Positions 10,288 through 64,000 of a stretch of 64,000 bases of DNA are shown here, piece by piece. The DNA is taken from the NCBI GenBank assembly GCA_021234155.1, contig JAJEKV010000030.1, forward strand, positions 6,445,890-6,509,889, in the 5' to 3' direction. The notes under the pieces were generated by a model, which did not search any database, was not told the origin of the DNA, and was given only the letters and a program-made list of their open reading frames with translations. This DNA comes from Isoetes taiwanensis (lineage: Eukaryota > Streptophyta > Lycopodiopsida > Isoetales > Isoetaceae). Position 1 is the first letter of the stretch. Each line of letters opens with the position of its first letter. Position numbers and translations under genes: made by a program.

Positions 10288-10664
10288 CAAGTTTAGCCAC
10301 GTTTGTTATGTGCAATTAATGCCATGTGATGAGGTGGCAGCAATATTTGGTGTAGCAGATCTTAACCGTTAGATAAAAAAGGTGAGCATAAATCCTAACC
10401 ATTAACTTTTTAATATTAAATTTGGTTTTTTTTAAAGGAGGTGAGGTGGCACCCTCATTAATAAAAAAGGTAGTGAGGTGGCAAAGCATTTATGAGTGGA
10501 TATTCTAGGAAGCTTCCTTTTGCTTAATTGCCTTCAAAGGCACGTAGCTTGCAGTAGAGGGATCGGATGAAGATGGGACCCACGTCTTTGGATTGCTCTC
10601 ATCGAGAGCTTTCCAATGAGTGGTGCTTTGGCACTATTTTCTCTCAGTTGGAGCCGACATGATT

Positions 10665-13694: not shown

Positions 13695-14091
13695 TATATA
13701 TATATATATACATACATATATCTATAAAGGCCGCTGGATGGCTGCATTCTACAGCCAGTTTTAGCTCTGACCAATGTCTAGCAGATTGTATTATACATGT
13801 TATTTATGTATTTTAAGACCACTGACCTTTGTGATACTTTATTTAGGTCTGGTTATAGTGGACCTTGATGTCCTCTAGATTGTTTTAGGCTCTTTTCCAT
13901 ACGTTTCTTTAAGGGCAACATGGACGATTAATACCCATGGGTATTTTTATCTACATAACTAGTATAGATAAATAATGGTCTTTAAGTGTATCTTTCACTT
14001 TGTGCTTTCCGTATCCATAGGAAATCCGTGAAAATATCTGGAACTATACGTTTCATAGCGGGTTCCAGCTATAGCCATAAGTAATGGGGGT

Positions 14092-17800: not shown

Positions 17801-17880
17801 AGAATCTTGTTGCATGATAAAACTTGGCCAAAAAAGAAGCAAACAGTGGACATTGAATATATATTTATATTTATAGATAT
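14823..17880. other. Core between array arms, no further gene recognised
   Basis: AT-rich sequence with small internal duplications: GGGCCAAATATTTGGTCTTC near 16,225 against GGGCCAAATACTTGGTCTTC near 16,455, and a roughly 50-bp pair at 17,565-17,660 (GATGCAAGAATCCTCCAA). Further exons of the AT-hook gene could be here but cannot be picked out. Confidence 0.35.
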
Positions 17881-17903
17881 ATATATATATATATATATAC
17901 AAG

Positions 17904-19798
17904 TGGTTGTACTATGAGGGACTATACAAATTCGATTAGACGCCAAAAATGCAGTGCCATCCAACGAAGATTCTATTAGGATTCTCCTAGATTCTCCAAG
18001 GCTCTAGAAAGATTTCCCTAGATTCTATGAGATTCCGTCAATGTTGATTCCTCGAGGAATTGTACAAATTCGACTAGAAATCAAATTTAAAGTCATGCGA
18101 TGAAGATTCTATAGAGATTCTCCAAGATCCCATCAAGATCCTCTAGATACTCAAAGATTTTATGAAGATTCCCTTAGTTTCATATAGATTCTTAAAGATT
18201 CTCCTAAGATTCCTCTAGATTTTCAAAGATTATCCTAAGATTCCTCTAGATTCCCTAAGATTCCATGTAGATTCTTCTAGATTCCCTTAGATTCTACAAA
18301 GATTCCCTTGTAGAACACATCTAGTGTCAAAGATTTCCATAGATCCCCTTGGATTCCCCCTAGATTCCCTAAGATTCCACAAAGATCCCCTAGATTCTTA
18401 AGGTTTTTACAAAGGTTCCCTTAGATTTTCAAAGATTATCTAAAGATTCCTTTAGATTACCCAAGAACCTAGATTCTATAAGATTCCATCAATGTTGATT
18501 TCTCGAGGGATTGTACAAATTCGATTAGAAATCAAATTTAAAGTCATGCGATGAAGATTCTATAGAGATTCTTCAAGATCCCGTTAAGATTCTCTAGATA
18601 CTCAAAGATTTTGTGAAGATTCCCTTAGATTTCTCTAGATTCTTAAAGATTCTCCTAAGATTCCTCTAGATTTTCAAAGATTATCCTAAGATTCCTCTAC
18701 ATTCCCCAAGATTCCATGTAGATTCTTCTAGATTCCCTTAGATTCTACAAAGATTCCCTTGTAGAACACACCCAGTGTCATAGATTTTCATAAATCCCCT
18801 TGGATTCCCCCTAGATTCCCTAAGATTCCACAAAGATCCCCTAGATTCTTAAGTTTTTTACAAAGATTCCCCTAGATTTTCAAAGATTATCTAAAGATTC
18901 CGTTATATTACCCAAGATTCTATGTAGATTCTCGTAGATTCCCTTAGATTTTATGAAGATTCTACTAGATTCTCTCAGATTTCATCAAGGTTCTTCTAGA
19001 TTCTCAAATATTTTTTGAAGATTTTCTAAGATTCCCCTAGATGCTTTTGAGATTCCCATAGATTTCTTAACATTCTCTTGAGATTCCCTTGATTCCCAAA
19101 GATTATCCCAAAATTCCTCTAGATTCCCCAAGCTTCTACATAGATTCTCTTAGATTCCTTTAAATTCTATGAAAATTCCCCTAGACTATCCAAGGTTCCA
19201 CGGAATGATGCCAAACCACTACTCATTGAAAAGGATTCGATGAGAAGAATCTAATGGTGTGGGTCCCACTTTGATCCGAGATCTCGATTGCAAGATAAAG
19301 TCATTTGAAGGCAACACAAAAGATAGAAGCTTCCATGAAAGCTTCATAATTAATGGGGGTGCCACCTCATTACCTTTTCATTAAATAAGGGTGACACCTC
19401 ACCCCTTTAATATAAAAAACTCTAATTTAATAAGAAAATGAATGGCTAGGATTTCTCCTCCCCCCCTTTATCTAACGGTTGAGATTGCTTACATCAAATC
19501 CACTTTAGGAGGAACCTTCCTTGCACCTTCCTGGAAAAATCAAGGGCCATGATTTCGCCTCCCCTTTTTGATCCGATGGTCCAGGGATGTGTTGCATGCC
19601 CCAATGCATGGCCATGCATGCCCCATGCATGACCCATCTATAATCCAATGGCCCGCATCGCGCCACTCAACCAGTGCCCCTAATCTGACGGCAAACAAAC
19701 ATGTCATATATTTTTAGCACATTATATAAACCATGGGTGCATCGTTTCCCTGGGACACATGGAATAATTTTATAAATATAATGATATATATATACAAG
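17904..19798 (+). mobile_element. E1: array-bearing repeat unit (right arm)
   Basis: The unit starts TGGTTGTACTATGAGGG just after a TA run and TACAAG. It then holds AGATTC minisatellite (about 17,960-19,195) with an internal duplication of about 450 bp; GTACAAATTCG..AGTCATGCGATGAAG recurs at about 18,061 and 18,515. The distal module follows: ACTACTCATTG, GTGGGTCCCAC, AAGCTTCC, GGTGCCACCTCATTAC. The end is AATAATT..TATATATACAAG at 19,798. The distal module is homologous, inverted, to 10,430-10,660, and parallel to 43,915-43,985 plus 59,313-59,480. No protein is encoded. Confidence 0.6.
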
Positions 19799-20706
19799 TA
19801 TTTGTACTATAAGGGAGTCACAGTGAAAAAAAATGCATATCAGTATATAAAAGTGTAGTTATGCTTGGTAACGGGTCTATTAGCTATAGTGAATGAAAAT
19901 CGGGGAGTAAAATCCAAGCTTAAAAAGATTAGTATCAATTCAACTGGAGATTTGCGATCTAAATTTTTGCTTGAGTAATTTACAATAAAAATCTTAGCAA
20001 GGAAGTTGGAAAAACTGTATATTTCACTCTGCAGCATCACTTCCAGTAGAATACCAATCAAATATATTATATTTGTGCAGTTCCAAGAAAATAGAGCCGT
20101 TGCAAAAAAACCACTTACCCAAAGAAAACAATAAACAAAGCCAGTTGAAGCGAGGGAAAAAAAAATGGCATCGAGGTTTAGACGACTTAGAAAAGGCTTG
20201 AGTATTTATAGGTCTTGGAGGTCCACCCTTCTATAGAAAAACAAAGATTCACAAGAATAAAAAATTCATTAGAGACTTCACTGACCCATACAAACCTCCA
20301 ACCCAATAGCCACAGTTTGACCAGAGTCCTGGTTCAACAATCAAACAAAAAGAATGCATGACTCTTTACCTTCACCATGTTGTCGCTCTTCACATCTTTG
20401 CTTCGTCCATACATGTCATTGGTGGCTGCTGACATTGCTCGTCCCACATTTAACAGGGTATATACAACCAGACACCAGAGACAATACCTTATAGAACCCA
20501 AATACCTGTTTTGGGAGTTTCAAAAGTCGAATTCTTGGTTAGGCCGCTGCTTTATAATTTTCACAAAGTCGAAGATCAGAATACTGTTGCCTCCAGCAAG
20601 TTTTAAACCCCCTTGTTTCCAAACGCTCAAGAATCTCAAGTGTGCAATGAACTTGCTACTATAATTCAAAATAAATCTTTCATTTGCATATCCATAAGGA
20701 AGAAAT

Positions 20707-43013: not shown

Positions 43014-43059
43014 TGATTGTACTATGAGGGAGCGTACAAATTTCGAGCCATCCAGTGAA

Positions 43060-43900
43060 GATTCTATAAAGATTCTCTTAGATTCTTCAAGGCTTAGAAA
43101 AAGATTCCCTAGATTCTCGAAGATTTCACGAAGATTCCCTTAGATTCCTCTACATTCTCTTGAGATTCTCATAGATTCTTTAAGATTCTCTTGAGTTATC
43201 CCTAGATTCTCAAAGATTAACCCAAATTTCCTCTAGATTCTCCAAGATTCTATGCAGATTCTCCTAAATTCCCATAGATTCTATGAAGATTCCCCTGCAA
43301 AACACATCCAATGTGAAAGATTCCCCAAAATTCCACAAAGATTCTTCTAGATTCTTAATATTCTACAAAGATTCCTCTAGATTCTCTAAGATTATATATA
43401 GTTTATGTAGATTCCCCTAGACTCCTTTAGATATTATGTATATTCCCCTAGATTTCATTAGATCTAAGTACATACCCCTAGATTCTCCAAGATTCCATTA
43501 AAGATCACGTAGATTCTCAAAGACTTTACGAAGATGCGCCTAGATTCTGCTAGATTTCCTAAGATTCTCTTAAGATCCCCATAGATTCTCTAATTCTGTT
43601 GAGATTCCTCTAGATTCCCGAAGTTTCTATGTAGATTCTCCCAGATCCCCTTAGATTCTACGAAGATTTCCCTAGATTCTTCGAGATTTTATCAAGATTC
43701 CCCTAGATTCTCAAAGGTTTTATAAAGATTTGCTTAGATTCTTAAAGATTCTCTTGTGATTCCCATAGATTCCTCAAGATTCTATTGATATTCCTTTACA
43801 TTCTTTAAGATCCTATGAAGATTCCTCTAGATTCTCTTAAATTCTCATAGATTCCATAAAATTCCAAGATTCCAGGAAGATTCTCAGTATTCGATCATAT
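43060..43900 (+). repeat. AGATTC minisatellite array of E4
   Basis: Degenerate AGATTCCCCTAGATTCT-type units in the same orientation as the E1 array and the reverse of the array at 10.7 kb. Confidence 0.95.
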
Positions 43901-44004
43901 TCACTTCAACTATGACGAAATGATATCAAAGCACTACTCATTGGAAAGCCCTCGACGAGAGGAATCCAATGGCATAGGCCTCACCCACAACGAAAAAGGT
44001 GCTC

Positions 44005-47000
44005 ACATCCCCCATAAAATCCTCCATTGAGGAACCGGGGTACTCGAGAGCAATGGGTTATTTTTTTTGCAATGGGGAATTCTTGAACAAAAGGGGGGAT
44101 TATTGAACAAAAAGGGTATATTCTAATGGAGGAATTAGTAGAAACAGGGGAGTGCAAATGCACATCGGGGTATTTTAAAAAAGGGGGATAAGGTCAAAAG
44201 GGTATTGCAAATGGATTGGGGTATTTTGAAGAAAAGGGGACTGTTTCAAAAAGGGAATTTGCGAATGGATTGGAGTATTTTCAAGAAAGGGGGATTGGTT
44301 CAAAAGGGAATTTGCGAATAGATTGGGGAATTTTTAAATAAAAGGGGATTGAGTTAAAGGAAAATTACGAAAAAAAGACAGAGGATTGCAATACTAGAGT
44401 ATTTTCAAACAAAGGGATAATGTCAAGAAAAAGGGTATTTTCAATGAAAAGTAAATTTATGGTTGTATACTAGCTAAATATTCGGGCTCAAGTCGGTTTG
44501 CATTTTCGAATGTCCCGCGGAGAGGCTATTTCAGCCTAATTACTGAGACCAGACATTATCTCGATAATGGCCTCCTCTCTTGGCCTCTATAAAATTGCAA
44601 TGATTCAAGAAATTTACTCGCTGCCCAAAGAACCTAAAATAGCCTCTGCCGGAAGGATTCGTTAGAGAATGTGCAGGCGGGCAATTTTCGCTTCTCGGAC
44701 CTTGGCTCGCCCTAACGGGCTCGCCAGGCCCTTACCAGTGCTTAAATTGCCCTACCGCACATTACCTATATCAAAATACTATCTACTTTCAAATTGTCAT
44801 ATGTAAATGGTCGGATCACCAAAGGTCCTTACAGCTTAAATTGCCACGGCACATTACCTATATCAAAATACTATCTACTTTCAAATTGTCATATGTAAAT
44901 GGTCGGATCATCTTAGAAGCCAGATTCTTACGTTCAAGAGTAGATTATGCATTGAGCTGTGATTTGCTAAGAGCCGGGCACGATGGCAACCCTCACCATC
45001 ACGTAAAAAGGCAAGCCCTTTTACTCGCACCATCATCTGCCATCGCCGAAAGCACAAGGCAAAACAGGGCCCCTCTCCGGCGATGGTTGCATGTGAACCC
45101 AGCCTAAGGTGGGTCAGAAATTTTTGTAGCTAAATCCAAAATAAAACAAAGAATGTGTTAGATTTGACATAGGACTATTTAGACTAGGCAAAAATTATGA
45201 AACAACAGCATAAGTGTGTGCATAAAAGTTGGGTAAAAACGTTTGTTTGAATTCTACGAAGAAATTCAAAGGAAAATCCTTGGCGTTCAGATATGGCGGT
45301 CGGTAGGGCGGCTATCATTTCTGCTCATTTCTGCTCGTTTACGCTCATTTACGCTTCGTTTACGCTCATTTTCGCTTTCGTGGATATGGCGGTCGGTAGG
45401 GCGGCTATCATGGCCTTTGCCATATAGCCAGAAGCTGTTGGATCTATATTCAAGGTATCGCTTGCATTCTTGCTCTATTTTTCTTGAATAACCCCTCTTC
45501 TTTGATCATTCAATGCGAGAGTAGGCTATGGCTGTAACCGCAAAGGCTCAAGATGTGCAGCTATGGTTTAGTATCTTGTTTTCAGACTTGGGAATGGAGC
45601 ATCGGCATTTCTCCATTTTCTCCATTTTCCTCATTTGCGCCATATCCAAATCCCTATTTCGATCATTGAGACCGATTTGGCTTTTGGCCTATTCATCAAC
45701 TCTTGGCAGCTCGGCTTCATATCTATTGCGCCGTCTAAGGCTTTGGCCGTTCGAGCCAAGCTTCTTGTTCCGGTATTTTGTCTGTAACTTCATTGCTCCC
45801 TTTATCCTCTGTTATTTCCCTTTCATGCCACCCGCCCACGTTTGATCATTTCTCTGTTTTCCGCCCGGCTTTGGGTTCTGCGATCCATCAAGTTTGGGTT
45901 CTTACTCACATATCCGGGTGAGATTCCACTCTTTTCGTTGATTATCCCCCCTTTTTCTTTGTATTTCGCCTCGATGCATGGCTTATTCAAGGTTCCGACA
46001 TTCTTGATCTGCAGGGTTTCCCCATAGATCGGCTAGATGAGCAGGTATTATCCTTCGCCCATAACCATGCCTTTCTAGGAGTCTTTCCTGAATGTTCATC
46101 TCTGCTGAGGACACAGGTATTTAATAGCACCTTTGGTCGATTAAATTTTTCCTTATGTTTCTACATGCATATCCTGTCATTTCGAGCAATGACAATGCAA
46201 ACTTTTGATATATCATTGATTTACAGGCTCATAACCAGTGCTGTATATTCATTTGCAACCATGTTAGTCAGATCCGGAACATCTGGACATCATGATTCTC
46301 ACAAGAATCTCATGGAGGAGCTGCACATATGTGTTTTCTTGCTGCTTCAAAGGTAAACATTAATTTTATTTGTAAGTGACAATATCTGCAAGGACATGCC
46401 TTCAGTGATTAGCATCAAAGTCGATGAAGTTTATATGTAATATATTAGAATGTCTTATACTACTTATTGTTTCCGTTTTCCATTTCTGATTTTCATTATT
46501 GATAATAATAATGAGGAAGAAACTATTTGCACCATTCCATTGAAAATGTATCTGAGCTATTATGGTCTTGCAGGTAAGAGCTAGAGTTTCCCTTTTTCTG
46601 TCTGCGTTTGTGTTTCTAGCGCAACAATAGAGGCTGGAAATTTTTGTGCCAAAATGGAGGGACATCTCCAACATCTCTTCATGGATTGGCATCAAAGTTC
46701 GAGATGTTCCGAAATGTGGTCACGTTTTGGCCACCATGCTCATTGAAAGTGTGTAGATTTACAAAGGTGTATTGAAATTTCATTTGCAAAGGTGTAATTT
46801 GATCAGTTTATTATTATCGTTGTTTTGAAATAATAAAAAGATTTGTCAATTTGTTACTGATTAGCTCTGCTCAAGTTGTTACTTATCAACTTATTTTTGA
46901 AATATATTAATTTACAAATGATAACAGGGTATTTTCTTATGAATGATGTCATACGGTGATAACAGGGTATGTAACAGGGTATGTTATTAATGGGGTATTA

Positions 47001-47236
47001 TTTGAAACAGGGAATTATTTGGAATGGGGTACTATTTAAAACAGGGAATTATTTGGAATGGGGTATTATTTAAAACAGGGAATTATTTGGAATGGGGTAT
47101 TATTTGAAACGGGGTATTATTTTGCAAATGATAATAGGGTATGATTTGAAATAAGGTATTACCTGAATAGGGTATTATCTTACGGATTATAACAGGGTAT
47201 GAATTTACATTTTTTGATTGGGGATTGGCGACACCA
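44005..47236. other. Left part of the CACTA-like element, no transposase recognised
   Basis: Subterminal repeats of GGGGTATTTTNAANAAAGGG and AACAAAAGGGG type fill 44,080-44,460. A tandem pair of about 94 bp lies at 44,740-44,909 (ATCAAAATACTATCTACTTT in both). GATATGGCGGTCGGTAGGGC occurs near 45,290 and again at about 45,383. AACAGGGTATTATTTGAAA-type repeats fill 46,920-47,210. The rest (45.4-46.9 kb) has short open frames but nothing recognisable. Confidence 0.5.
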
Positions 47237-50200
47237 AAGAATATGTAGCAAAAATATGTGGGGTTCGTGGGGATTTGATATAGATATAATTCTTGAAACC
47301 ATAGACCATATCCCTAAAACAATTCAATGGGTTATTATAAAAAAAAAACATAGATTTAAGATAAAAAATAGTCACATTAGCTCACTAGTTAGATTGGTTA
47401 AAGTAGTCTTATTAGGACATTGAGTTATTTTAGTAGAGGTTCAATCCCCAGATTTCATATTCTAAAAGCTTAAATGAAACCCAGATAGAGGCACGATATA
47501 CCATCAAAACCTTAGGCAAACTCTAGATTCGACATCTTAAAATCATAGGCGCCCCCAATCATAATTGAGCATAATCAAACGAGAGGTGTCCAGAGGCTCC
47601 AACATACCGGGTCAGAGGATTGATGATCCGACGACCGTGGTAGTCCGTGGTGCACCTCGCTTAGAATATGTAGCAAAAAATAAAGGGTTCCGTGGGGATT
47701 GGATATCTATAATTTTAAAACAATTCAATGGGTTATTATAAAAAAAAAAATAGATTTAAGATAAAAAATAGTCACATTAGCTCACTAGTTAGATTGGTTA
47801 AAGTAGTCTTATTAGGACATTGAGTTATTTTAGTAGAGGTTCAATCCCTCGTGATTTCATATTCTAAAAGCTTAAATGAAACCGTGATAGAGGCAACGAT
47901 ATACCATCAAAACCTTAGGCAAACTCAGATTCGACATCTTAAAATCATAGGCATCCCCAATCATAATTGAGCATAATGAAAACGAGAGGTGTCCAGAGGC
48001 TCCAACATACGCCGGATTGACAGATCGGGATAGGATTGACAGATCCGACGATCGTGGTAGTCCGTGGTGCACCTCGCTTAGAATATGTAGATAAAAAAAA
48101 ATAACAGTGGGGGATATCTATCCCATAAAACAATTCAATGGGTTATTATAAAAAAAACATAGATTTAAGATAAAAAAATAGTCACATTAGCTCACTAGTT
48201 AGATTGGTTAAAGTAGTCTTATTAGGACATTGAGTTATTTTAGTAGAGGTTCAATCCCCGTGATTTCATATTCTAAAAGCTTAAATGAAACCGTGATAGA
48301 GGCACGATATACCATCAAAACCTTAGGCAAACTCAGATTCGACATCTTAAAATCATAGGGCCCCCAATCATAATTGAGCATAATCGAAACGAGAGGTGTC
48401 CAGAGGCTCCAACATACCGGGCCGTAGGATTGACAGATAAACGATCGTGGTAGTCCGTGGTGCACCTCGCTTAGAATATGTAGCAAAATAACAGGGGATA
48501 TATAGATATCCCATATCCCTAAAACAATTCAATGGGTTATTATAAAAAAAAAAAATAGATTTAAGATAAAAAATAGTCACATTAGCTCACTAGTTAGATT
48601 GGTTAAAGTAGTCTTATTAGGACATTGAGTTATTTTAGTAGAGGTTCAATCCCCAGATTTCATATTCTAAAAGCTTAAATGAAACCGTGATAGAGGCACG
48701 ATATACCATCAAAACCTTAGGCAAACTCACATCTTAAAGATTCGACATCTTAAAATCATAGGCATCCCCAATCATAATTGAGCATAATCAAACGAGAGGT
48801 GTCCGTGAGGCTCCAACATAGATATGGGCCGTGAGGATTGATGATCCTTAAAACGACCGTGGTAGTCCAGGTGCACCTCGCTTAGAATATGTAGGGGGTT
48901 TATTGGGACATTGAAATAACAATCCCCTGGATATCATATCCCTAAAACAATTCAATGGGTTATTATAAAAAAACATAGATTTAAGATAAAAAATAGTCAC
49001 ATTAGCTCACTAGTTAGATTGGTTAAAGTAGTCTTATTAGGACATTGAGTTATTTTAGTAGAGGTTCAATCCCCTCGTGATTTCATATTCTAAAAGCTTA
49101 AATGAAACCGTGATAGAGGCACGATATACCATCAAAACCTTAGGCAAACTCAGATTCTACATCTTAAAATCATAGGCGCCCCCAATCATAATTGAGCATA
49201 ATCAAACGAGAGGTGTCCAGAGGCTCCAACATATAGCCTGGGCCGAGGATTGACAGATCCTAACGATCGTGGTAGTCTAGGGTGCACCTCGCTTAGAATA
49301 TGTAGCAAAATAACAGGGGTTCCGTGGGGATTTGATATAGATATAATTCTTGAAACCATAGACCATATCCCTAAAACAATTCAATGGGTTATTATAAAAA
49401 AAAAACATAGATTTAAGATAAAAAATAGTCACATTAGCTCACTAGTTAGATTGGTTAAAGTAGTCTTATTAGGACATTGAGTTATTTTAGTAGAGGTTCA
49501 ATCCCTCGTGATTTCATATTCTAAAAGCTTAAATGAAACCAGATAGAGGCACGATATACCATCAAAACCTTAGGCAAACTCAGATTCGACATCTTAAAAT
49601 CATAGGCGCCCCAATCATAATTGAGCATAAAAAAAAACGAGAGGTGTCCAGAGGCTCCAACATACCCGGGGCCGTAGGATTGACAGATCCGACGATCGTG
49701 GTAGTCCGTGGTGCACCTCGCTTAGAATATGTAGCAAAATAACAGGGGGTTCCGTGGGGATTTGATATAGATATAATTCTTGAAACCATAGACCATATCC
49801 CTAAAACAATTCAATGGGTTATTATAAAAAAAAAACATAGATTTAAGATAAAAATAGTCACATTAGCTCACTAGTTAGATTGGTTAAAGTAGTCTTATTA
49901 GGACATTGAGTTATTTTAGTAGAGGTTCAATCCTCAGATTTCATATTCTAAAAGCTTAAATGAAACCGTGATAGAGGCACGATATACCATCAAAACCTTA
50001 GGCAAAACTCGTAGATTCGACATCTTAAAATCATAGGGCCCCCAATCATAATTGAGCATAATCAAACGAGAGGTGTTTTAGTAGAGGTTCAATCCTCTGG
50101 TAGTATTCTAAAGATATAATGAAACCGTGATAGAGGGATATACCATCAAAACCTTAGGCAAACCTCAGATTCACATCTTAAAATCATAGGCGCCCCTAAT

Positions 50201-53200
50201 CATAATTGAGCATAAGATAAAAAGAGGTGTCCGTGAGGTCCAACATACTCGCTTAGGATTGATGTGATCCAAAACGACCGTAGGTAGTCCAGGTGCATTC
50301 GCTTAGAATAGATATAATTTTGAAACCATAGGGATATATCCCTAAAACAATTCAATGGGTTATTATAAAAAAACATAGATTTAAGATAAAAAATAGTCAC
50401 ATTAGCTCACTAGTTAGATTGGTTAAAGTAGTCTTATTAGGACATTGAGTTATTTTAGTAGAGGTTCGAATCCCCGGGATTTCATATTCTAAAAGCTTAA
50501 ATGAAACCGTGATAGAGGCACGATATACCATAAAAAACCTTAGGCAAAGTAGTCTTATCAGATTCGACATCTTAAAATCATAGGCGAGGCACGTATATAC
50601 CCCCAATCATAATTGAGCATAATCATAATTGAGCATAAAACGAGAGGTGTCCAGAGGCTCCAACATACGGCCCGGGCCGTAGGATTGACAGATCCGACGA
50701 CCGTGGTAGTCCTAGGGTGCACCTCGCTTAGAATATGTAGCAAAATAACAGGGGTTCCGTGTGGGGATTTGATATAGATATAATTCTTGAAACCATAGAC
50801 CATATCCCTAAAACAATTCAATGGGTTATTATAAAAAAAAACATAGATTTAAGATAAAAAAATAGTCACATTAGCTCACTAGTTAGATTGGTTAAAGTAG
50901 TCTTATTAGGACATTGAGTTATTTTAGTAGAGGTTCAATCCCTCGATTTCATATTCTAAAAGCTTAAATGAAAACAGATAGAGGCAACGATATACCATCA
51001 AAACCTTAGGCAAACTCAGATTCGACATCTTAAAATCATAGGCGCCCCAATCATAATTGAGCATAATCAAACGAGAGGTGTCCAGAGGCTCCAAACATAC
51101 GCCGGGGCCGTAGGGATTGATGATCCGACGATCGTGGTAGTCCAGGTGCACCTCGCTTAGAATATGTAGCAAAAAATAACAGGGGTTCTGTGGGGATTTG
51201 ATATAGATATAATTTTTGAAACCATAGACCATATCCCTAAAACAATTCAATGGGTTATTATTATAAAAAAAAACATAGATTTAAGATAAAAAAAAATAGT
51301 CACATTAGCTCACTAGTTAGATTGGTTAAAGTAGTCTTATTAGGACATTGAGTTATTTTAGTAGAGGTTCGAATCCCTCGTGATTTCATATTCTAAAAGC
51401 TTAAATGAAACCGAGATAGAGGCACGATATACCATCAAAACCTTAGGCAAAAGAGACATCTTAAAATCATAGGCCCCCAATCATAATTGAGCATAACAAT
51501 TCAATGGGTTATTATAAAAAAACATAGAGAGGTGTCACATTAGCTCACTAAATGAAAAGTAGTCTTATAGAGGCACGATATACCATCAAAACCTTAGATA
51601 GGCAAACTCAAAATTAGGACATCTTAAAATCATAGGCGCCCCAATCATAATTGAGCATAATCAAACGAGAGGTGTCCAGAGGCTCCAACATACAGTATAA
51701 AATAGGATTGACAGATCCGACGACCGTGGTAGTCCAGTGGTGCACCTCGCTTAGAATATGTAGCAAAAATAGGGGGTTCTTATTAGGGGATTTAGAGGAT
51801 ATCTATATGAAACCATAGACCAAAAAATTCAATGGGTTATTATAAAAAAAACATAGATTTAAGATAAAAAATAGTCACATTAGCTCACTAGTTAGATTGG
51901 TTAAAGTAGTCTTATTAGGACATTGAGTTATTTTAGTAGAGGTTCAATCCCCAGATTTCATATTCTAAAAGCTTAAATGAAACCGTGATAGAGGCACGAT
52001 ATACCATCAAAACCTTAGGCAAACTCAGATTCGACATCTTAAAATCATAGGCGCCCCCAATCATAATTGAGCATAATCAAAACGAGAGGTGTCCAGAGGC
52101 TCCAACATACCGGGGCCGTAGGATTGACATGATCCGACGATCGTGGTAGTCTAGGGTGCACCTCGCTTAGAATATGTAGCAAAAATAACAGGGGGTTCTG
52201 TGGGGATTTGATATAGATATAATTCTTGAAACCATAGACCATATCCCTAAAACAATTCAATGGGTTATTATAAAAAAAAAAAAAAACATAGATTTAAGAT
52301 AAAAAATAGTCACATTAGCTCACTAGTTAGATTGGTTAAAGTAGTCTTATTAGGACATTGAGTTATTTTAGTAGAGGTTCAATCCCCGTGATTTCATATT
52401 CTAAAAGCTTAAATGAAAACCGTGATAGAGGCACGATATACCATCAAAACCTTAGGCAAACTCAGATTCGACATCTTAAAATCATAGGCGCCCCAATCAT
52501 AATTGAGCATAATCAAACGAGAGGTGGTTAAAGAGGCTCCAACATAGCCCGGGCCGTGAGGGATTGATGATCCGACGATCGTGGTAGTCCGTGGTGCACC
52601 TCGCTTAGAATATGTAGCAAAATAACAGTGGGTTCCGTGGGGATTTGATATAGATATAATTTTGAAACCATAGACCATATCCCTAAAACAATTCAATGGG
52701 TTATTATAAAAAAAAACATAGATTTAAGATAAAAAAATAGTCACATTAGCTCACTAGTTAGATTGGTTAAAGTAGTCTTATTAGGACATTGAGTTATTTT
52801 AGTAGAGGTTCAATCCCTCAGATTTCATATTCTAAAAGCTTAAATGAAACCAGATAGAGGCACGATATACCATCAAAACCTTAGGCAAACTCAGGACATC
52901 TTAAAATCATAGGCGCCCCCAATCATAATTGAGCATAATCAAACGAGAGGTGTCCAGAGGCTCCAACATATTAGGGGCCGTAGGGACCAAAAAAAGATCC
53001 GACGACTTTGGTAGTCATAGGTGCACCTCGCTTAGAATATGTAGCAAAAATTAAGTGGGGTTCCGTGGGGATTTGATATAGATATAATTTTGAAACCATA
53101 GACCATATCCCTAAAACAATTCAATGGGTTATTAAAAAAAAAACATAGATTTAAGATAAAAAAAATAGTCACATTAGCTCACTAGTTAGATTGGTTAAAG

Positions 53201-56200
53201 TAGTCTTATTAGGACATTGAGTTATTTTAGTAGAGGTTCAATCCTCAGATTTCATATTCTAAAAGCTTAAATGAAACCGTGATAGAGGCACGATATACCA
53301 TCAAAACCTTAGGCAAACTCAGATTCGACATCTTAAAATCATAGGCGCCCCAATCATAATTGAGCATAATCAAACGAGAGGTGTCCAGAGGCTCCAACAT
53401 ACGCCGGGCCGTAGGATTGATGATCCGACGACCGTGGTAGTCCAGTGGTGCACCTCGCTTAGAATATGTAGCAAAATAATGTGGGGGTTCGTGGGGATTT
53501 GATATAGATATAATTTTTGAAACCATAGACCATATCCCTAAAACAATTCAATGGGTTATTAAAAAAAAAAAAAAAACATAGATTTAAGATAAAAAATAGT
53601 CACATTAGCTCACTAGTTAGATTGGTTAAAGTAGTCTTATTAGGACATTGAGTTATTTTAGTAGAGGTTCGAATCCCCTCGTGATTTCATATTCTAAAAG
53701 CTTAAATGAAACCGTGATAGAGGCAACGATATACCATCAAAACCTTAGGGCAAACTCAGATTCGACATCTTAAAATCATAGGCCCCCAATCATAATTGAG
53801 CATAATCGAAACGAGAGGTGTCCAGAGGCTCCAACATACGCCCGGGCCGTAGGGATTGACAGATCCGACGATCGTGGTAGTCCGTGGTGCACCTCGCTTA
53901 GAATATGTAGCAAAATAATGGGGGTTCTGTGGGGATTTGATATAGATATAATTTTTGAAACCATAGACCATATCCCTAAAACAATTCAATGGGTTATTAT
54001 AAAAAAAACATAGATTTAAGATAAAAAATAGTCACATTAGCTCACTAGTTAGATTGGTTAAAGTAGTCTTATTAGGACATTGAGTTATTTTAGTAGAGGT
54101 TAAAAAAAAATCCCTCAGATTTCATATTCTAAAAGCTTAAATGAAACCGTGATAGAGGCACGATATACCATCAAAACCATCAAAACCTTAGGCAAACTCA
54201 GATTCGACATCTTAAAAATCAGATTCGACATCTTAAAATCATAGGCGCCCCCAATCATAATTGAGCATAATTTAAACGAGAGGTGTCCAGAGGCTCCAAC
54301 ATACAAAAACCTTAGGGCCGGGCGACATCTTAAAATCAGGGATTCCCCCAATGATAATTGATCCGACGAAACGAGGGTAGTCCAGGGTGCAACCTCGCTT
54401 AGAATATGTAGCAAAATAATATGGGGTTCCTGTGGGGATTTGATATAGATATAATTCTTGAAACCATAGACCATATCCCTAAAACAATTCAATGGGTTAT
54501 TAAAAAAAAAACATAGATTTAAGATAAAAAATAGTCACATTAGCTCACTAGTTAGATTGGTTAAAGTAGTCTTATTAGGACATTGAGTTATTTTAGTAGA
54601 GGTTCAATCCCTCAGATTTCATATTCTAAAAGCTTAAATGAAACCGTGATAGAGGCAACGATATACCATCAAAACCTTAGGCAAACTCAGATTCGACATC
54701 TTAAAATCATAGGCGCCCCCAATCATAATTGAGCATAATCAAAACGAGAGGTGTCCAGAGGCTCCAACATACGACCGGGCCGTAGAGGATTGATGATCCG
54801 ACGACCGTGGTAGTCTAGGGTGCACCTCGCTTAGAATATGTAGCAAAATAACAGGGGTTCCGTGGGGATTTGATATAGATATAATTTTTGAAACCATAGA
54901 CCATATCCCTAAAACAATTCAATGGGTTATTATAAAAAAAAAAACATAGATTTAAGATAAAAAAATAGTCACATTAGCTCACTAGTTAGATTGGTTAAAG
55001 TAGTCTTATTAGGACATTGAGTTATTTTAGTAGAGGTTCAATCCCCAGATTTCATATTCTAAAAGCTTAAATGAAACCGTGATAGAGGCACGATATACCA
55101 TCAAAACCTTAGGCAAACTCAGATTCGACATCTTAAAATCATAGGGCCCCTAATCATAATTGAGCATAATCAAACGAGAGGTGTCCAGAGGCTCCAACAT
55201 ACGCCCCGGGGCCGAGGGATTGACAGATCCCGACGACCGTGGTAGTCCAGGGTGCACCTCGCTTAGAATATGTAGCAAAATAACAGGGGTTCCTGTGGGG
55301 ATTTGATATAGATATAATTCTTGAAACCATAGACCATATCCCTAAAACAATTCAATGGGTTATTATAAAAAAACATAGATTTAAGATAAAAAATAGTCAC
55401 ATTAGCTCACTAGTTAGATTGGTTAAAGTAGTCTTATTAGGACATTGAGTTATTTTAGTAGAGGTTCAATCCCTCGATTTCATATTCTAAAAGCTTAAAT
55501 GAAACCGTGATAGAGGCACGATATACCATCAAAACCTTAGGCAAACTCAGATTCGACATCTTAAAATCATAGGCGCCCCCAATCATAATTGAGCATAATC
55601 AAACGAGAGGTGTCCAGAGGCTCCAACATACGCCTGGGGCCGTAGGATTGATGTGATCCGACGATCGTGGTAGTCTAGGGTGCACCTCGCTTAGAATATG
55701 TAGCAAAATAACAGGGGTTCCGTGGGGATTTGATATAGATATAATTTTTGAAACCATAGACCATATCCCTAAAACAATTCAATGGGTTATTAAAAAAAAA
55801 ACATAGATTTAAGATAAAAAATAGTCACATTAGCTCACTAGTTAGATTGGTTAAAGTAGTCTTATTAGGACATTGAGTTATTTTAGTAGAGGTTCAATCC
55901 CCGAGATTTCATATTCTAAAAGCTTAAATGAAACCGTGATAGAGGCAACGATATACCATCAAAAACCTTAGGCAAACTCAGATTCGACATCTTAAAATCA
56001 TAGGCGCCCCCAATCATAATTGAGCATAATCAAACGAGAGGTGTCCAGAGGCTCCAAACATACGCCCGGGCCAGAGGATTGACAGATCCGACGACCGTGG
56101 TAGTCCGTGGTGCACCTCGCTTAGAATATGTAGCAAAAATAATGTGGGGTTCTGTGGGGATTTGATATAGATATAATTTTTGAAACCATAGACCATATCC

Positions 56201-59168
56201 CTAAAACAATTCAATGGGTTATTATAAAAAACATAGATTTAAGATAAAAAAAATAGTCACATTAGCTCACTAGTTAGATTGGTTAAAGTAGTCTTATTAG
56301 GACATTGAGTTATTTTAGTAGAGGTTCAATCCCCGTATTTCATATTCTAAAAGCTTAAATGAAACCGTGATAGAGGCAACGATATACCATCAAAAACCTT
56401 AGGCAAACTCAGATTCGACATCTTAAAATCATAGGCGCCCCCAATCATAATTGAGCATAATCAAACGAGAGGTGTCCAGAGGCTCCAACATACCTGATTG
56501 GGCCGAGGGATTGACAGATCCGACGATCGTGGTAGTCCGTGGTGCACCCTCGCTTAGAATATGTAGCAAAAAATAACAGGGGGTTCCGTGGGGATTTGAT
56601 ATAGATATAATTCTTGAAACCATAGACCATATCCCTAAAACAATTCAATGGGTTATTATAAAAAAAAAACATAGATTTAAGATAAAAAATAGTCACATTA
56701 GCTCACTAGTTAGATTGGTTAAAGTAGTCTTATTAGGACATTGAGTTATTTTAGTAGAGGTTCAATCCCCAGATTTCATATTCTAAAAGCTTAAATGAAA
56801 CCAGAGATAGAGGCACGATATACCATCAAAACCTTAGGCAAACTCAGATTCGACATCTTAAAATCATAGGCGTCCCCAATCATAATTGAGCATAATTGAA
56901 ACGAGAGGTGTCCAGAGGCTCCAACATACAGTCTGGACCGTAGGATTGACAGATCCGACGACTGTGGTAGTCCAGGGTGCACCTCGTTTAGAATATGTAG
57001 CAAAATAACATTGGGGTTCCGTGGGGATTTGATATAGATATAATTTTGAAACCATAGACCATATCCCTAAAACAATTCAATGGGTTATTATAAAAAAACA
57101 TAGATTTAAGATAAAAAATAGTCACATTAGCTCACTAGTTAGATTGGTTAAAGTAGTCTTATTAGGACATTGAGTTATTTTAGTAGAGGTTAGAATCCCC
57201 GTGATTTCATATTCTAAAAGCTTAAATGAAACTTAAATGAAACCCTGATAGAGGCACGATATACCATCAAAACCTTAGGCAAAACTCAGATTCGACATCT
57301 TAAAATCATAGGCCCCCAATCATAATTGAGCATAATCGAAAACGAGAGGTGTCCAGAGGCTCCAACATACACCGGGTCAGAGGATTGACAGATCCGACGA
57401 TCGTGGTAGTCCAGGTGCACCTCGCTTAGAATATGTAGCAAAATAACGTGGGGTTCCGTGGGGATTTGATATAGATATAATTTTTGAAACCATAGACCAT
57501 ATCCCTAAAACAATTCAATGGGTTATTAAAAAAAAAAACATAGATTTAAGATAAAAAAATAGTCACATTAGCTCACTAGTTAGATTGGTTAAAGTAGTCT
57601 TATTAGGACATTGAGTTATTTTAGTAGAGGTTCAATCCCCGTGATTTCATATTCTAAAAGCTTAAATGAAACCCGATAGAGGCAACGATATACCATCAAA
57701 ACCTTAGGCAAACTCAGATATTCGACATCTTAAAATCATAGGCGCCCCCAATCATAATTGAGCATAATCAAAACGAGAGGTGTCCAGAGGCTCCAACATA
57801 CGCCCGGGTCAGGGATTGACAGATCCGACGATCGTGGTAGTCCGTGGTGCACCTTGTTTAGAATATGTAGCAAAATAATGTGGGGTTCCGTGGGGATTTG
57901 ATATAGATATAATTTTGAAACCATAGACCATATCCCTAAAACAATTCAATGGGTTATTATAAAAAAAAACATAGATTTAAGATAAAAAATAGTCACATTA
58001 GCTCACTAGTTAGATTGGTTAAAGTAGTCTTATTAGGACATTGAGTTATTTTAGTAGAGGTTCAATCCCCGTATTTCATATTCTAAAAGCTTAAATGAAA
58101 CCGTATAGAGGCACGATATACCATCAAAACCTTAGGCAAACTCAGTATTCGACATCTTAAAATCATAGTGTCCCCAATCATAATTGAGCATAATCAAACG
58201 AGAGGTGTCCAGCATAATCAAAACGAGAGGCTCCAACATACGCCCGGGCCGTAGGATGGATGATCCGACGATCGTGGTAGTCCAGTGGTGCACCTTGTTT
58301 AGAATATGTAGCAAAATAAATGTGGGGTTCCTGTGGGGATTTGATATAGATATAATTTTTGAAACCATAGACCATATCCCTAAAACAATTCAATGGGTTA
58401 TTTAAAAAAAACATAGATTTAAGATAAAAAATAGTCACATTAGCTCACTAGTTAGATTGGTTAAAGTAGTCTTATTAGGACATTGAGTTATTTTAGTAGA
58501 GGTTCAATCCCCTCAGATTTCATATTCTAAAAGCTTAAATGAAACCCAGATAGAGGCACGATATACCATCAAAACCTTAGGCAAACTCAGATTCGACATC
58601 TTAAAATCATAGGTGGCCCCCAATCATAATTGAGCATAATCGAAACGAGAGGTGTCCAGAGGCTCCAACATACAACCGGGCCGAGGGATTGATGATCCGA
58701 CGATTGTGGTAGTCGGGTGGTGCACCTCGCTTAGAATATGTAGCAAAATAACAGGGGTTCCAGGGGATTTGATATAGATATAATTCTTGAAACCATAGAC
58801 CATATCCCTAAAACAATTCAATGGGTTATTATAAAAAAAAAACATAGATTTAAGATAAAAAAATAGTCACATTAGCTCACTAGTTAGATTGGTTAAAGTA
58901 GTCTTATTAGGACATTGAGTTATTTTTAGTAGAGGTTCAAATCCTCAGATTTCATATTCTAAAAGCTTAAATGAAACCGTGATAGAGGCACGATATACCA
59001 TCAAAACCTTAGGCAAACTCAGATTCGACATCTTAAAATCATAGGCGTCCCCAATCATAATTGAGCATAATCGAAACGAGAGGTGTCCAGAGGCTCCAAC
59101 ATACAGTCTGGGCCGTAGGATTGACAGATCCGACGACTGTGGTAGTCCAGGGTGCACCTCGTTTAGAA
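47237..59168 (+). repeat. Tandem array, about 27 units of ~430 bp, tRNA-like
   Basis: The landmark GTCACATTAGCTCACTAGTT occurs 27 times, first at about 47,371 and last at about 58,866. It is usually 427-435 bp apart, shorter (about 400) in the first units. Each unit contains a run of A on the plus strand, the tRNA-like block, AAGCTTAAATGAAACC, ACGATATACCATCAAAACCT, AATCATAATTGAGCATAAT, GAGAGGTGTCCAGAGGCTCC and GTGCACCTCGCTTAGAATAT. Some units are scrambled or partial (50.05-50.35, 51.45-51.75 and 54.3-54.4 kb). Open frames that recur in the units, such as minus-strand NCFRDMVYGF, are a consequence of repetition and are not consistently kept. The array fills 78% of the CACTA-like element. Confidence 0.95.
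47386..47448 (+). promoter_or_regulatory. Pol III-type A and B boxes in array unit 1 (repeated in the units)
   Basis: TAGTTAGATTGG (47,386-47,397) fits the tRNA A box at 11 of 12 positions. GGTTCAATCCC (47,438-47,448) fits the B box fully. The spacing is 40 bases, as in tRNA genes. Almost every array unit carries the same pair; three units have GGTTCGAATCCC. A TTTT lies between the boxes, which could end transcription early. A full cloverleaf was not obtained, so this is read as tRNA-derived rather than as a tRNA gene. Confidence 0.55.
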
Positions 59169-59785
59169 TACAAATAAGGAAAAGGGGGATTGTGGCCAAA
59201 TACCCCGATTCGAAAAATACATTTTATCCCCTGTTCTTCGACGGAAAAGGTGGATTTTATAGGCATTTTTGCGGGGTATTTTATAGGGTATTGGAGCACC
59301 TTTTTCGCTGTGACCTTCATCCGACCCCTTTGCTGCAAGTTACGGGCCTTTGAAGATAATTACAAAAAAGAAGCTTTCTCGAAATTCCTTCCATAAACGT
59401 TGGTGCCACCTCATTACTATTTTATTAAATGAGGATGCCACCTCAACTCCTTTAATAAATAAATTGCAACTTAATAAAAAAATTAATGGCCACGATTTCT
59501 CCTCCCCCTTTTGATCCAAGGGCCGAGATTGGCCACACCAAAAAGCACCTTTAGGGACCTTCCTTGCACCTTCTCTAAAAGCAAGGGCCATGATTTTGCC
59601 TTCCCCCTTGATCCGATGGTCTAGAGGCATGGTGTATGCCCCATGCATGACCCCATGTAGATCCTAAGGCCATAGCTATACCACCTCATTGGCCCCCAAA
59701 TAGACGACCTAGATTGATTTGAATATGTAAACAATCCATGGGTACATCGTTTCCCATGGACATATAGAATAATTATATATACAAG

Positions 59786-61106: not shown

Positions 61107-64000
61107 TTTTTTTTTTTTTTTTGAGGGATAAAAAAGATTTTATTTACTTAGAGAGAATGATACAAAGCCACATGGCAGAGGTGCACCCATCCACGAATAT
61201 GAGATGGGGGTAGCTACGTAGCTCCAGCTTGTACTATTCTCTTTCCCGACCTAGACCAGATTAAAATAGGTGCCCCATATTTCTTCCTTTACCTCTTCTT
61301 CACATTTAAAAACTAGCCTAAATTTTTAAGTCTTTCAAGTACCGGTGAAGTAGCCGAGTTGATGATATGAATACCTCCCGATTCTCGGTGAAGACTCGGG
61401 CATTCCTCCTTTTTCCATATTGACCCGGATCGTCTGTGCCCCGGCTATGTGAAAAGAAATCTTCTTCTTGGGACACCATTACGGAGGGAGAATTCTAGCG
61501 GCAATTCTTTGGTTCCTAAGGGGTATTCGAACCTATCCGGACTCAGGCCCATACTTGCAAAGCATCCCACATTCCACCAAACAATGTTCTATAGATTCTT
61601 CTTCCTCTTCACACATAGGGCAAAGTGGGCTCACGTTATTGTCCCATTTGGAGACTAGATGATTGACCCTTGGGACCCCGTGGATCACTTGCCAAAGAAA
61701 GGCGTTGATTCGTGGAGGGAGGAATTTCAGCCAAGCCGTTTCTCCGGATGTTTTTAAGGATGTCCTCGGTGATCACTAGCTCCCACTTGGGGAGATACTA
61801 GAAGAAATCCCTTAGTCTTCAAAACTTTGTAGCATGACTTCACAAACTTGTTAGGTAGCGAAGGATGTACGACCCATGGACTTTGATCTCCTCTATTTAT
61901 TGTGTTTGGGAGTACGGAAGCCACACATTCCCAAATTATCTTTGTGCCTCCTTTAAACCAAAAACAGGCTTGAAATGCTTCCCAAGCGGCGGGTGCTCTC
62001 CCATATACCATCGAGCACAAGAGTGTATACCACAGTTTTCCATCTCTTCACAATCCTCGGCGTACGCCACTATACCTAATGGGCCTTGTTTATTGTGCAA
62101 TTCCACTTTGGTACCCACCATGGAGGGAGGTCCTCGCTTTTAAATTTGCTGATATCAAGCGTGAATAGTTTCTTTATGGCATTCCAAGCGAAATAAGACC
62201 CTTCAGGAAGGGGGAGGCTTCTTTACATGGCTTGAGATCAAAGAAGAGAGACCATGGAAGCAACACCTTGACAGAAGGCTTACTATGCTTACAAGAATAC
62301 AATAGAGCTTGGTTGATGAGGTGCAAACACGGAGACTTCACCCTTTCCTGAAGAATCATCCATATGAATTTGGTGTTAATACTTTGCTCGTAAGACTATG
62401 TCAAACATACCAATTCCCCTTCTGTTTTTGTCCCTCTTGCACTTCCACCAAGCAATTTTGATCGTTGCACCTTCTTCATTACCTCCCAGCATTTAAGTTT
62501 GAATCAACCCTTCTAACTCCACGCACCTTCCCTCGGAGCAAGTAGAATTGATGATATGTATACATAAGTATTATTTAGCACATGTTTTGCCCAGTAATCC
62601 TCCCCGCAAGGGATAACTTTGCTACCTTCCACCAATTTAGGTGTTTATGTAGGCCTAGTAGCATTTCATCCCATATTCGTGCACTAGTGATGTTAATGCC
62701 CTTTGGGATTCCTAACAAGCTGGAGTGTTCACCCTCGGGGATAATTTTCCATGGTAAGCTTTCCAAACATATGGGATGCCTGTTCTCCAAAGGCCCTGCA
62801 GCGAGCATTTTTTTCCAATTTATGAGGCAACCTGAAGCTATTGAGAAGGTGGCGGTGGTTATCTGCACATGATATATTGTTTTCCTCTGCCTCGATAAAG
62901 CGAGAAATGAGATGCGCATCTTTGGTTCTGATTTGTTGAGAACCGTCCCACATTTCTAGTCCCTGAATGAGACCGTCTGCGGATGCTTGCAGGAATAGCT
63001 GTGAGAGAGCTTCTGCTGCTATATTGAAGAGGAAGGGAGCAAGGGGACAACCTTGCACGATGCCCTCTTAATCTCAAATATAGGAGATGATTCACCTTGA
63101 AATAAGACTGAGGCTCGAGCTGATCTCAATAGTTTCATTACCCCTTCTGTAAAAATATCCCCACAACCCAGCTTGAGCATCATTTTATGCAGAAAACTCC
63201 ATCTAATGCTGTCATATGCCTTGGTGAAATCTAGCTTTAGATAGGCTACTTTTTGTCCTGTTTTTCTGGCCCAGTGCAACCCTTCAAAAGTTTGCCGCCA
63301 CATTGCTCGAGAATACTCCTACCGGGTAAGAAGCCGTGATTGGGCTGTGAGATACCTTAAAGCTAAAATTGGTTTGATCTTCTCTCTGCCATAGCCTTGG
63401 CTATGATTTTGTAAAATGAGATAGGAGTGTGATAGGCCTCAATCATTAATTGTGCTTGGCTCCTTGCACTTAGGTACCCGGGCAATGCGGACTGTATTCA
63501 ATCTTGGGTTTAAATTTTCAGCTTGCAAGAAGTCATTGTATCTTGGAAAAAGATATCATTTTAATCCATTCCCAATTGCATTGGTAGAATTCGATGGGAA
63601 TTCCATCCATACCCGGACATTTATTCTTAGCCAATAAGAGGGTGGCTTTTCAAGATCCTCCATAAAGAGAGAGCGACTCGAGAATATCTTTTTGGCTAGA
63701 GCTCATTATAGGTGAAACTTTTGAGATCACTAACTCTTATTATGTATCTTGGAATGGTAGGTTATGTTCCCCAAAAACCTTGGAAATGATTATAGAAGTA
63801 CCTTTTTAGATCCCCAGGGGATTTGAGGGTCGAAATGTCGCCTAGTGCAATGGTTGATAGAGTAAGCGACCTCTTCTTTTTTTTTTTTGACTTAAAGAAG
63901 AACTTGGTGCATTTATCACCTTCATTTAGCCAAGTCAATCCTGCTTTGCATCTGTTCTCCATTATCTTGACTTCCTCTAGTGCCTTTTATCGTTCTATTA
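61107..64000 (-). mobile_element. L1-type LINE, decayed ORF2 (3' part; continues past the window)
   Basis: Read on the minus strand. 63,962-63,770: GLTWLNEGDKCTKFFFKSKK. About 63,625-63,570: CPGMDGIPIEFY. 63,303-63,070: VAYLKLDFTKAYDSIRWSFL, reverse transcriptase motif A. 63,058 on: QGCPLAPFLFNIAAEAL, motif B. About 62,830-62,580: ASGCLINWKK ... LSLAGRI. 61,740-61,590: INAFLWQVIHGVPRVNHL, then LCPMCEEEEESIEHCLVECG, the zf-RVT zinc finger. The poly(A) tail is T16 on the plus strand at 61,107-61,122. Damage includes one G lost just before QGCP (AGGGCATCG), loss of the catalytic (Y/F)ADD motif, which should lie about 62,920-62,890, and many stops. It cannot be autonomous. The 5' part lies outside the window. 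Confidence 0.9.

Follow-up and report, generated by a model that had tools for sequence, protein, structure and literature searches.

The long tandem array in the window, that is, the whole 64,000-nucleotide stretch of Isoetes taiwanensis DNA that was analysed, is a separate insertion in a CACTA-type element, which is only its host, and the array is itself mobile, moving either one copy at a time or as an entire head-to-tail array. Its insertions have an exact 5′ end, occur as multimers and as monomers, remove bases from the target without duplicating any, prefer a G^A site and show microhomology, and a larger family of elements shares the same 5′ end. We put the chances at about even that the 431-bp unit moves by one-ended, rolling-circle-like transposition.

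The array and its CACTA-type host

The original prediction described a CACTA transposon consisting largely of the array. Its CACTA context was right in kind: the host element runs from 43986 to 59312, with inverted ends of the form CACA[A/G]CGAAAAAGGTGCTC (CACAA/CACAG, not CACTA) and a 3-bp target duplication, ACC, at 43983–43985 on the left and 59313–59315 on the right, as is usual for CACTA elements. The composition was not as described, because the CACTA-type host is multicopy and is also present free of the array, and the array is mobile by itself. When the flanks of the window array are joined, the junction is spanned by at least 28 array-free host copies among the 46 matches listed in one genome search made jointly for three insertions; four were read. 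Host sequence without the array was seen in five stretches (L121–L124 and L128). In L128, the host part to the left of the array (45245–47236, plus strand) adjoins the right end of the host element (59168–59312, plus strand), which is 100% identical there and has the same end base.

The array itself, with 27 A-box units of about 431 bp each, occupies 47240–59166 on the plus strand, starting exactly at AATATGTAGC, with its last full unit ending ...CACCTCGTTTAG; these are the same ends as those of array insertions elsewhere. It is followed by an AATA tail (59167–59170, plus strand), in which the next unit is briefly begun before the host sequence returns; the ATA belongs to the host as well, so that the first three bases of the host right end overlap this tail. 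Outside the array, the CACTA-type element has entered a separate high-copy repeat (59313–59781, plus strand). Among five non-array window frames scanned, one, at 62732–63067, gave a weak RVT_1 match resembling a LINE reverse transcriptase (E 0.012) and another a weak RepB_primase_C match, both below the cut-off.

The array is common to the window and nine other loci, whose flanks are not shared. The ends were tabulated for 17 of 20 array loci (19 plus the window), leaving out L006, which is rearranged with inverted pieces, and C1046 and C908, in which the array exceeds the stretch read. Fifteen of the 17 start exactly at AATATGTAGC, with flanks that lack long similarity in this 1.66-Gb genome, and 12 of the 17 end about −14 to +21 nt from a unit end. 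A genome search for the unit outside long arrays, as the original prediction had suggested, found such copies, and the monomers L055, L058 and L064 have the same ends as the arrays. L058 is 431+19 nt long, and this terminal redundancy fits a circular or tandem template.

tRNA-like boxes and the quality of the unit sequence

The original prediction of a long tandem array whose units each carry a Pol III-type pair of A and B boxes was borne out. The A box TAGTTAGATTGG has 27 exact copies in the window, all within 47386–58892; with up to two mismatches allowed the count rises to 31, where the mean expected by chance is 8 and none of 100 shuffles reached 31. An example at 52324–52335 (plus strand) agrees with TRGYNNARNNGG at 11 of 12 positions, and its B box, at 52376–52386 (plus strand), reads GGTTCAATCCC. 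This B-box sequence, the one originally claimed, is exact at 19 places in the array, each 40 bases past an A box. Well-assembled short arrays of the 431-bp element read the canonical GGTTCGAATCC, which also occurs three times in the window array. Many window copies of the B box look mis-called because the well-assembled arrays read the canonical sequence, and, judged from those arrays, the true B box of the unit is canonical.

The differences among units of the window array point the same way. They lie mostly at CG/CHG sites (23 of 26 A-box intervals compared, the three left out falling outside 390–480 bp) and therefore look like base-calling errors. We had considered that the last unit differed from the inner units by descent (CGTTTAG versus CGCTTAG), but dropped this, since the difference fits the CG/CHG error pattern and since the two units of L001 are identical over the 417 nt present in the second, with an inner junction that reads CGTTTAG. 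Apparent unit divergence in such arrays can thus be base-calling noise at often-methylated sites.

With an A box matching at 11 of 12 positions, a B box at 11 of 11 and a spacing of 40, none of 1000 shuffles fitted Pol III as well. At the level of sequence this is the arrangement of a Pol III promoter, and the tRNA-like boxes may be transcribed by Pol III; they are kept in a consensus of older copies put together by eye. A run of four T, however, lies between them. The A box begins at base 148 of the unit, so that the element starts 147 bp upstream of it, and the boxes do not set the element ends. A covariance-model scan of the unit, proposed along with the original prediction, gave no Rfam tRNA at E values up to 10, and ARAGORN, in its bacterial code setting, likewise found none. 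Rfam matches to ceN111 (best E 0.46; 3.9 in L001) were below the gathering score and were taken as chance. The minus strand of the array holds two open frames, of 118 and 139 amino acids; the 431-bp unit is non-coding.

Insertion junctions, empty sites and the larger family

Empty sites were located for 12 of 16 insertions tested, the window array among them, and for L002, L009, C878 and large-family copy A none was found. No target duplication was seen at any of the 12, and the target had lost 0–40 bp. An apparent 9-bp target duplication at another locus, C914a, was rejected, the array there being truncated, with parts of the larger family on both sides. In all 12 cases the 5′ junction is followed by a host A, and G precedes the element start in 20 of 31 left ends counted (21 from the 431 family, 10 from the large one; P about 1e-7). 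Not in this count are C908 (g) and the older copies L130 (c), L133 (g), L134 (t) and L137 (c).

At the right junction, microhomology of at least 2 nt was found in 9 of 12 insertions, as a raw count. The raw lengths per host copy, in nucleotides, were 6, 6 and 0 for L008; 3, 3 and 2 for L064; 4 for L005; 4, 0, 4 and 2 for L001; 3 for C1034a; 3 and 3 for the window; 2 and 0 for L058; and 2 each for L055 and L007. At the low end, C1034b and large-family copy B had 1 and L003 had 0, and some host copies show none. Empty copies with poorer junction alignment (L076, L081, L085, L087 and, for B, L125 and L126) were left out of these lengths.

The larger element family has the same exact 5′ end as the 431-bp unit, with variable right parts, and forms runs of the type [431]n-[large]-[431]n. 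Its copy B likewise lacks a target duplication, and in two large relatives the end is formed by a palindrome of about 450 bp. At 17 Helitron Rep loci inspected (from 150 scored Helitron_like_N loci), up to 4.5 kb upstream, we found neither AATATGTAG on the same strand nor any sequence that matched the large element or the 431 unit significantly, and three reading frames of the large relatives had no Pfam match; thus, over these loci and frames, no partner gene, whether for Rep, a helicase or another protein, could be tied to the element ends.

How the array may move

In the one-ended, rolling-circle-like model, a nuclease acting in trans would cut the unit junction TTTAG^AATATG, and copying would go one or more rounds on a circular (or tandem) template. 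The exact 5′ end would be joined to a host site of the G^A type; the other end, having no sharp terminator, would mostly stop no more than about 20 nt from a unit end and be joined to host DNA 0–40 bp downstream, usually via microhomology. The outcome would be arrays of any unit number that start exactly, end loosely and leave the target unduplicated. What we infer here is the circle, the nuclease and the direction of copying; the junction pattern resembles rolling-circle transposition in an unfinished form. Several observations speak against the model: the loci and frames inspected above yielded no Rep, helicase or other protein tied to the element ends, canonical Helitrons insert without target loss, a clear terminal hairpin was not found in the 431 unit, the microhomology is a raw count and is missing in some host copies, and it is not obvious what the conserved tRNA-like boxes would do in a DNA mechanism.

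The junctions read on the other strand also tell against a rolling circle, in that they suit target-primed reverse transcription in which the 3′ end is exact and the 5′ end imprecise, as described for R1/R2 in passages of PMC2718515. A minus-strand RNA would then end exactly at ...GCTACATATT, the host G 3′-end would prime the cDNA, and the ragged right junction would be the RNA 5′ end joined by microhomology. We hold this to be possible but doubtful. R1/R2 insertions do show an exact end opposite a ragged one, as well as microhomology and target loss (same passages), members of the large family have one exact end in common and differ at the other, and the window contains the weak reverse transcriptase-like fragment noted above; on the other hand, none of the 12 empty sites shows a target duplication and no tail was seen, the ragged ends gather near a unit end in 12 of 17 431 arrays instead of being spread, and the A and B boxes are on the other strand. 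Target loss and microhomology, together with varying array lengths, would also suit extrachromosomal circular or linear satellite DNA captured at double-strand breaks by end joining, with no dedicated enzyme. This seems improbable, because capture should give starts of random phase whereas 15 of 17 arrays begin at the same base, and because host sites are biased to G^A.

Arrays running from monomers to many-mers of a short, low-GC unit recall the metazoan retrozymes, as portrayed in parts of PMC7229834, in which tandem repeats would yield circular RNA through a self-cleaving ribozyme, to be reverse transcribed. Such an origin is decidedly improbable here: neither a hammerhead nor any other Rfam ribozyme was found at E values up to 10 in the window array or a well-assembled copy, and the empty sites lack target duplications. 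The box scores described above, and the persistence of the boxes in the by-eye consensus, would favour a tRNA-derived SINE, the origin implied by the original prediction, or a Pol III-driven TRIM of the Helenus/Cassandra type turned tandem. The junctions largely refute this, and we consider it highly improbable: the promoter is not at the element start but 147 bp inside it, no LTR and no 3′ tail were seen, no tRNA matched, and none of the 12 empty sites shows a target duplication, whereas Helenus produces duplications of 4–5 bp (according to the abstract of PMC10886601). That a CACTA element carries and spreads the array, as might be suggested by its position inside an element with matching CACTA-type ends and a 3-bp duplication, is hardly credible and is refuted as a general mechanism by the array-free copies of the host sequence and the unrelated flanks of other arrays.

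Canonical Helitrons insert between A and T, and without target loss, whereas the 5′ junction here has mostly G before it and A after it, and the target, although never duplicated at the 12 empty sites, loses 0–40 bp. IS91 is a bacterial element with a known transposase. Canonical Helitron ends, as given in passages of PMC4067079, are 5′ TC and 3′ CTRR; the 431 unit begins AATATGTAGC and ends TTTAG, and membership of the canonical Helitrons fails. As for a hairpin near the 3′ end, none was clear in the 431 unit, and the palindrome noted above ends two large relatives. Helentrons and HINEs are characterized in the same passages by a T–T insertion preference and subterminal inverted repeats, as opposed to the G^A junction here, and no inverted repeats between the two ends of the 431 unit were seen by eye.

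Closer likenesses are found among tandem systems. In the portions of PMC10701932 compared, the Arabidopsis tRNA-Cys cluster resembles the 431 array in that a 0.4-kb unit containing a tRNA gene is repeated and overlaps a Helitron annotation, and its authors suggest IS91-like one-ended transposition without a terminator; in IS91, one end is enough to initiate and tandem copies arise, as in our model. One-ended rolling-circle transposition is thus proposed but not shown for that cluster, which is a single cluster of real tRNA genes with CTAG motifs, described in those portions without insertion junctions. The 431 family, by comparison, has many dispersed insertions, tRNA-like boxes only, no TC or CTRR ends, and junctions read against empty sites. 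The tandem arrays of truncated plant Helitrons (Xiong et al. 2016, as summarized in part of PMC12628747) have several to several hundred repeats, with many 5′ ends and many with a single 3′ Helitron end, and a rolling circle without a terminator is proposed for them as here, but the 431 arrays differ in their non-canonical ends and in the loss of target bases. Oyster HINE/Helentron elements, in excerpts from PMC7492417, likewise form dispersed satellite-like arrays of the rolling-circle class without target duplication; there the array lies between conserved flanks with subTIRs and a palindrome, while the 431 array has no carrier flanks. The animal non-LTR retrozymes (PMC7229834, in part) share a short unit and dispersed dimers to 62-mers, and differ in possessing a ribozyme and, where seen, target duplications.

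How satellite arrays arise and reach new chromosomal places is a long-standing question, and here whole arrays lie at many sites with a common start base and with empty sites that can be read. Tentatively, and as something less than probable, these elements might represent a class of plant mobile elements that transpose by one end alone, with a nuclease-defined 5′ end at G^A, repeated copying that gives monomers to multimers and another end closed by microhomology repair. Such a class would create satellites directly where it inserts, and would differ from Helitrons in its ends, its target and the loss of target bases. Should one-ended rolling-circle movement prove true, the insertions would provide evidence at the level of junctions for what has so far been a proposal for the Arabidopsis tRNA-Cys/Helitron cluster. 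The arrays would also scatter many Pol III-type promoters across the genome.

The array and its copies elsewhere in the genome

The head-to-tail array of ~431-bp units occupies positions 47240-59166 of the window (+ strand) and holds exact copies of the A box (27) and of the unit start, AATATGTAG (26), bearing out the tandem array of ~430-bp units in the original prediction. Around it lies a CACTA-type element (43986-59312), with the ends CACA[A/G]CGAAAAAGGTGCTC and a 3-bp duplication, ACC, on both sides. The prediction had taken the whole for a CACTA transposon made mostly of satellite; the array does lie inside a CACTA-type element, but it is itself the mobile part and the CACTA element its landing place, because the flanks of arrays elsewhere are unlike each other. 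We therefore conclude that the window array is a satellite that moves by itself and has here inserted into a CACTA-type element. The CACTA and gag-like repeats of the genome, noted by eye, and its many Helitron Rep domains suggest a plant.

One unit used as query against the genome (1.66 Gb, 1110 contigs) gave 172 matches in 19 scored of 2938 first-look candidates, from which nine loci were compared whole with their flanks, together with the ends of ten more, making 20 with the window. The left flanks of the nine whole loci and the window showed no mutual match, and their right flanks matched only in simple repeats (L005, L006 and L008) and in one 57-bp stretch, common to L002 and the window, at least 600 bases from the array. 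Looser settings gave a few further short, weak flank matches. The right flanks at C1026, C914a and C914b are related because a larger family, described below, comes after those arrays.

Both ends could be tabulated in 17 of the 20 loci. The exact start, AATATGTAGC, was found in 15; of the others, one reads TATATGTAGC and one is truncated. The far end was less sharp: in 12 of the 17 it fell in a range from ~14 nt before a unit end to 21 nt beyond it; the larger family followed in three (C1026, C914a and C914b), the array at C988 stopped well within a unit, and the far end at C1042 was scrambled. At L006 (C1078:20119000-20126600), inverted and direct unit pieces alternate on the left side of the array, as if by template switching. 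Unit ends on one strand extend over ~31 kb at C24:700526-731711, probably a longer array than that of the window.

The unit also occurs outside arrays, as the original prediction had proposed checking. The unit end, GGTGCACCTCGTTTAG, has 2955 occurrences in the genome (none for the backward-read control), and 20 isolated places were fetched from the first 100 matches listed. Three (L055, L058 and L064) are single copies at 98-99.8% identity with ends as in the arrays, and a fourth (L050), at 91%, has the same ends. The remaining 16 are mostly older, ~74-94% identical piecewise and often partial or tandem; at L061 the match is confined to the last 21 bp of the unit. In L058 a whole unit is followed by the first 19 nt of another, a redundancy that could come from a circular or tandem template but would not be expected from a linear monomer. 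A long segment is present three times on contig C2 (L045, L046 and L047); the copies are 86-90% alike over ~1.5 kb, and the same truncated unit lies in each.

Elsewhere in the window, a degenerate minisatellite of AGATTCT/AGATTCC-like words (10346-13728, 17846-19817 and 43037-43972) is linked to sequences like 59315-59652, and one copy appears to be split by the CACTA-type element; within it, 12817-13706 duplicates 11936-12821 at 97.7%. A LINE reverse transcriptase-like fragment lies at 62732-63067 (- strand), with a weak, below-cut-off match to Pfam RVT_1 (E 0.012).

Insertion junctions and mode of movement

The joined flanks of 16 insertions were searched in the genome and some of the matching sites were then aligned. 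Flank-spanning empty sites were found for 12: L001, L003, L005, L007, L008, L055, L058, L064, C1034a, C1034b, the window and one large element, B. None of the 12 has a target duplication. Target bases were lost instead: 0 in L001, 1-2 in L003 and C1034b, 6-8 in L058, ~9-11 in C1034a, 13 in L005, 14 in L008, 17 in L007, ~19 in the window, 37 in L064, 40 in L055 (a third empty copy suggests ~12) and 35 in large element B, from the one of three sites aligning throughout. The host base right after the 5' junction was A in all 12. The window call rests on the alignment, since host copies (ccaGC-ATAAC) and the occupied copy (ccaAAG-AATATG) differ there, and the C1034a junction shifts by two bases between host copies. 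G stood just before the start in 20 of the 31 left ends counted (P ~1e-7, with G taken as 20%), and the unit's own junction is likewise G^A (TTTAG^AATATG). Microhomology at the right junction was scored, as raw lengths uncorrected for chance, between the tail of the element and the host bases lost. In the best-matching host copy it came to 6, 4, 4, 3, 3, 3, 2, 2 and 2 nt for nine insertions, to 1 nt for two more and to 0 for L003; some further host copies of L008, L001 and L058 gave 0.

The best fit to these features, to which we would give about even chances, is that the unit moves by a one-ended, rolling-circle-like process: there is one exact end, a short matching target motif, no target duplication and multimers, with target loss and microhomology at the other end. 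A rolling-circle element lacking a terminator would have just such an exact start and loose far end. The same junctions, read on the opposite strand, would also suit R1/R2-type target-primed reverse transcription, for which target-base deletion and joining of the RNA 5' end by microhomology are possible (PMC2718515). Three observations make us regard this as less likely than the rolling circle: the ragged ends mostly fall close to the end of a unit, the host is cut at G^A just as at the junction between units, and a tail is absent from every copy read.

The array element behaves like a rolling-circle element without a terminator, yet it does not qualify as a canonical Helitron. The 4.5 kb upstream of 17 inspected of 150 scored Helitron Rep domains contained no AATATGTAG on the strand searched, that of the domain, and neither the large element nor the unit matched there significantly, so that no partner role can be assigned to canonical Helitrons. 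The genome is rich in Helitron_like_N domains, with 1813 candidates, of which 150 were scored; many lie in long open frames.

Of the published ideas found, the closest concerns an Arabidopsis tRNA-Cys cluster, where 0.4-kb repeats overlap a Helitron annotation and IS91-like one-ended transposition is proposed (PMC10701932). Truncated Helitrons arranged in tandem and with many 5' ends have been reported from plants (Xiong et al. 2016, via PMC12628747), and oyster HINE elements, with satellites between conserved flanks, resemble the present insertions in having no target duplications (PMC7492417). Helitron and Helentron features were taken from PMC4067079; a study of Fusarium describes non-canonical Helitrons and joined ends (PMC5148889), and the LTR elements Helenus and Cassandra carry Pol III-type promoters (PMC10886601; PMC7215508). 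Among the titles and abstract openings read, mostly outside subscription papers, we found no published array with these junctions.

A larger family with the same start

At C1026, C914b and C21, the array is followed by a second sequence, whose opening ~25 bp nearly match those of the unit; at C914 and C21 this large element lies between two arrays. As a genome query it gave 2176 first-look candidates, with 40 scored copies at least 96% identical. Of 13 copies fetched, ten are not next to the end of an array; these ten share exactly the same start base, and their left flanks look unrelated; one large copy (L091) is inserted in an old 431 copy. The right part diverges from large copy A at ~+236 to +293 in 11 of the 13, leading in L092, L095 and L099 into a second common type. 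These comparisons indicate a family with a constant start and a variable right part. Copies A and B are alike over ~2.4 kb, ending in a ~450-bp palindrome. For this right-end palindrome of the larger elements (loci L094+L102 at 2179-2632, L065, L066, L067 and L068), two copies that are alike in other respects carry the middle in opposite orientations, and related palindromes lie near the arrays at C914, C21 and C1026.

Promoter boxes and differences between units

The boxes were scored against the A-box consensus TRGYNNARNNGG and the B-box consensus GGTTCGANYCC. The well-assembled L001 unit fits them at 11/12 and 11/11, with a spacing of 40, a fit equalled by none of 1000 dinucleotide shuffles; a consensus of older copies, typed by eye, also fits (1/1000 shuffles as good). 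Judged by sequence, the boxes are a candidate Pol III promoter. Between them, at position 190, is the only T4 that the unit has on its + strand. The tRNA likeness in the original prediction did not carry over to tRNA models, ARAGORN and Rfam giving no tRNA. Among 18 older copies, conservation in the tRNA-like windows (151-225) averages 0.82-0.89 vs 0.60-0.91 elsewhere; this part is well conserved, not uniquely so.

With the L001 unit as reference, the differences in 23 window units affect ~20% of positions for CG/CHG cytosines and their immediate neighbours, 0.6-1.8% for positions 2-11 bases away and 3.3% for those farther off, the A run included. The second L001 unit (417 nt) is identical to the first. 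From this clustering and the identity of the L001 units, we infer that differences between units of the long array are probably mostly base-calling errors at methylated sites, and other satellites of the same assembly may carry similar errors.
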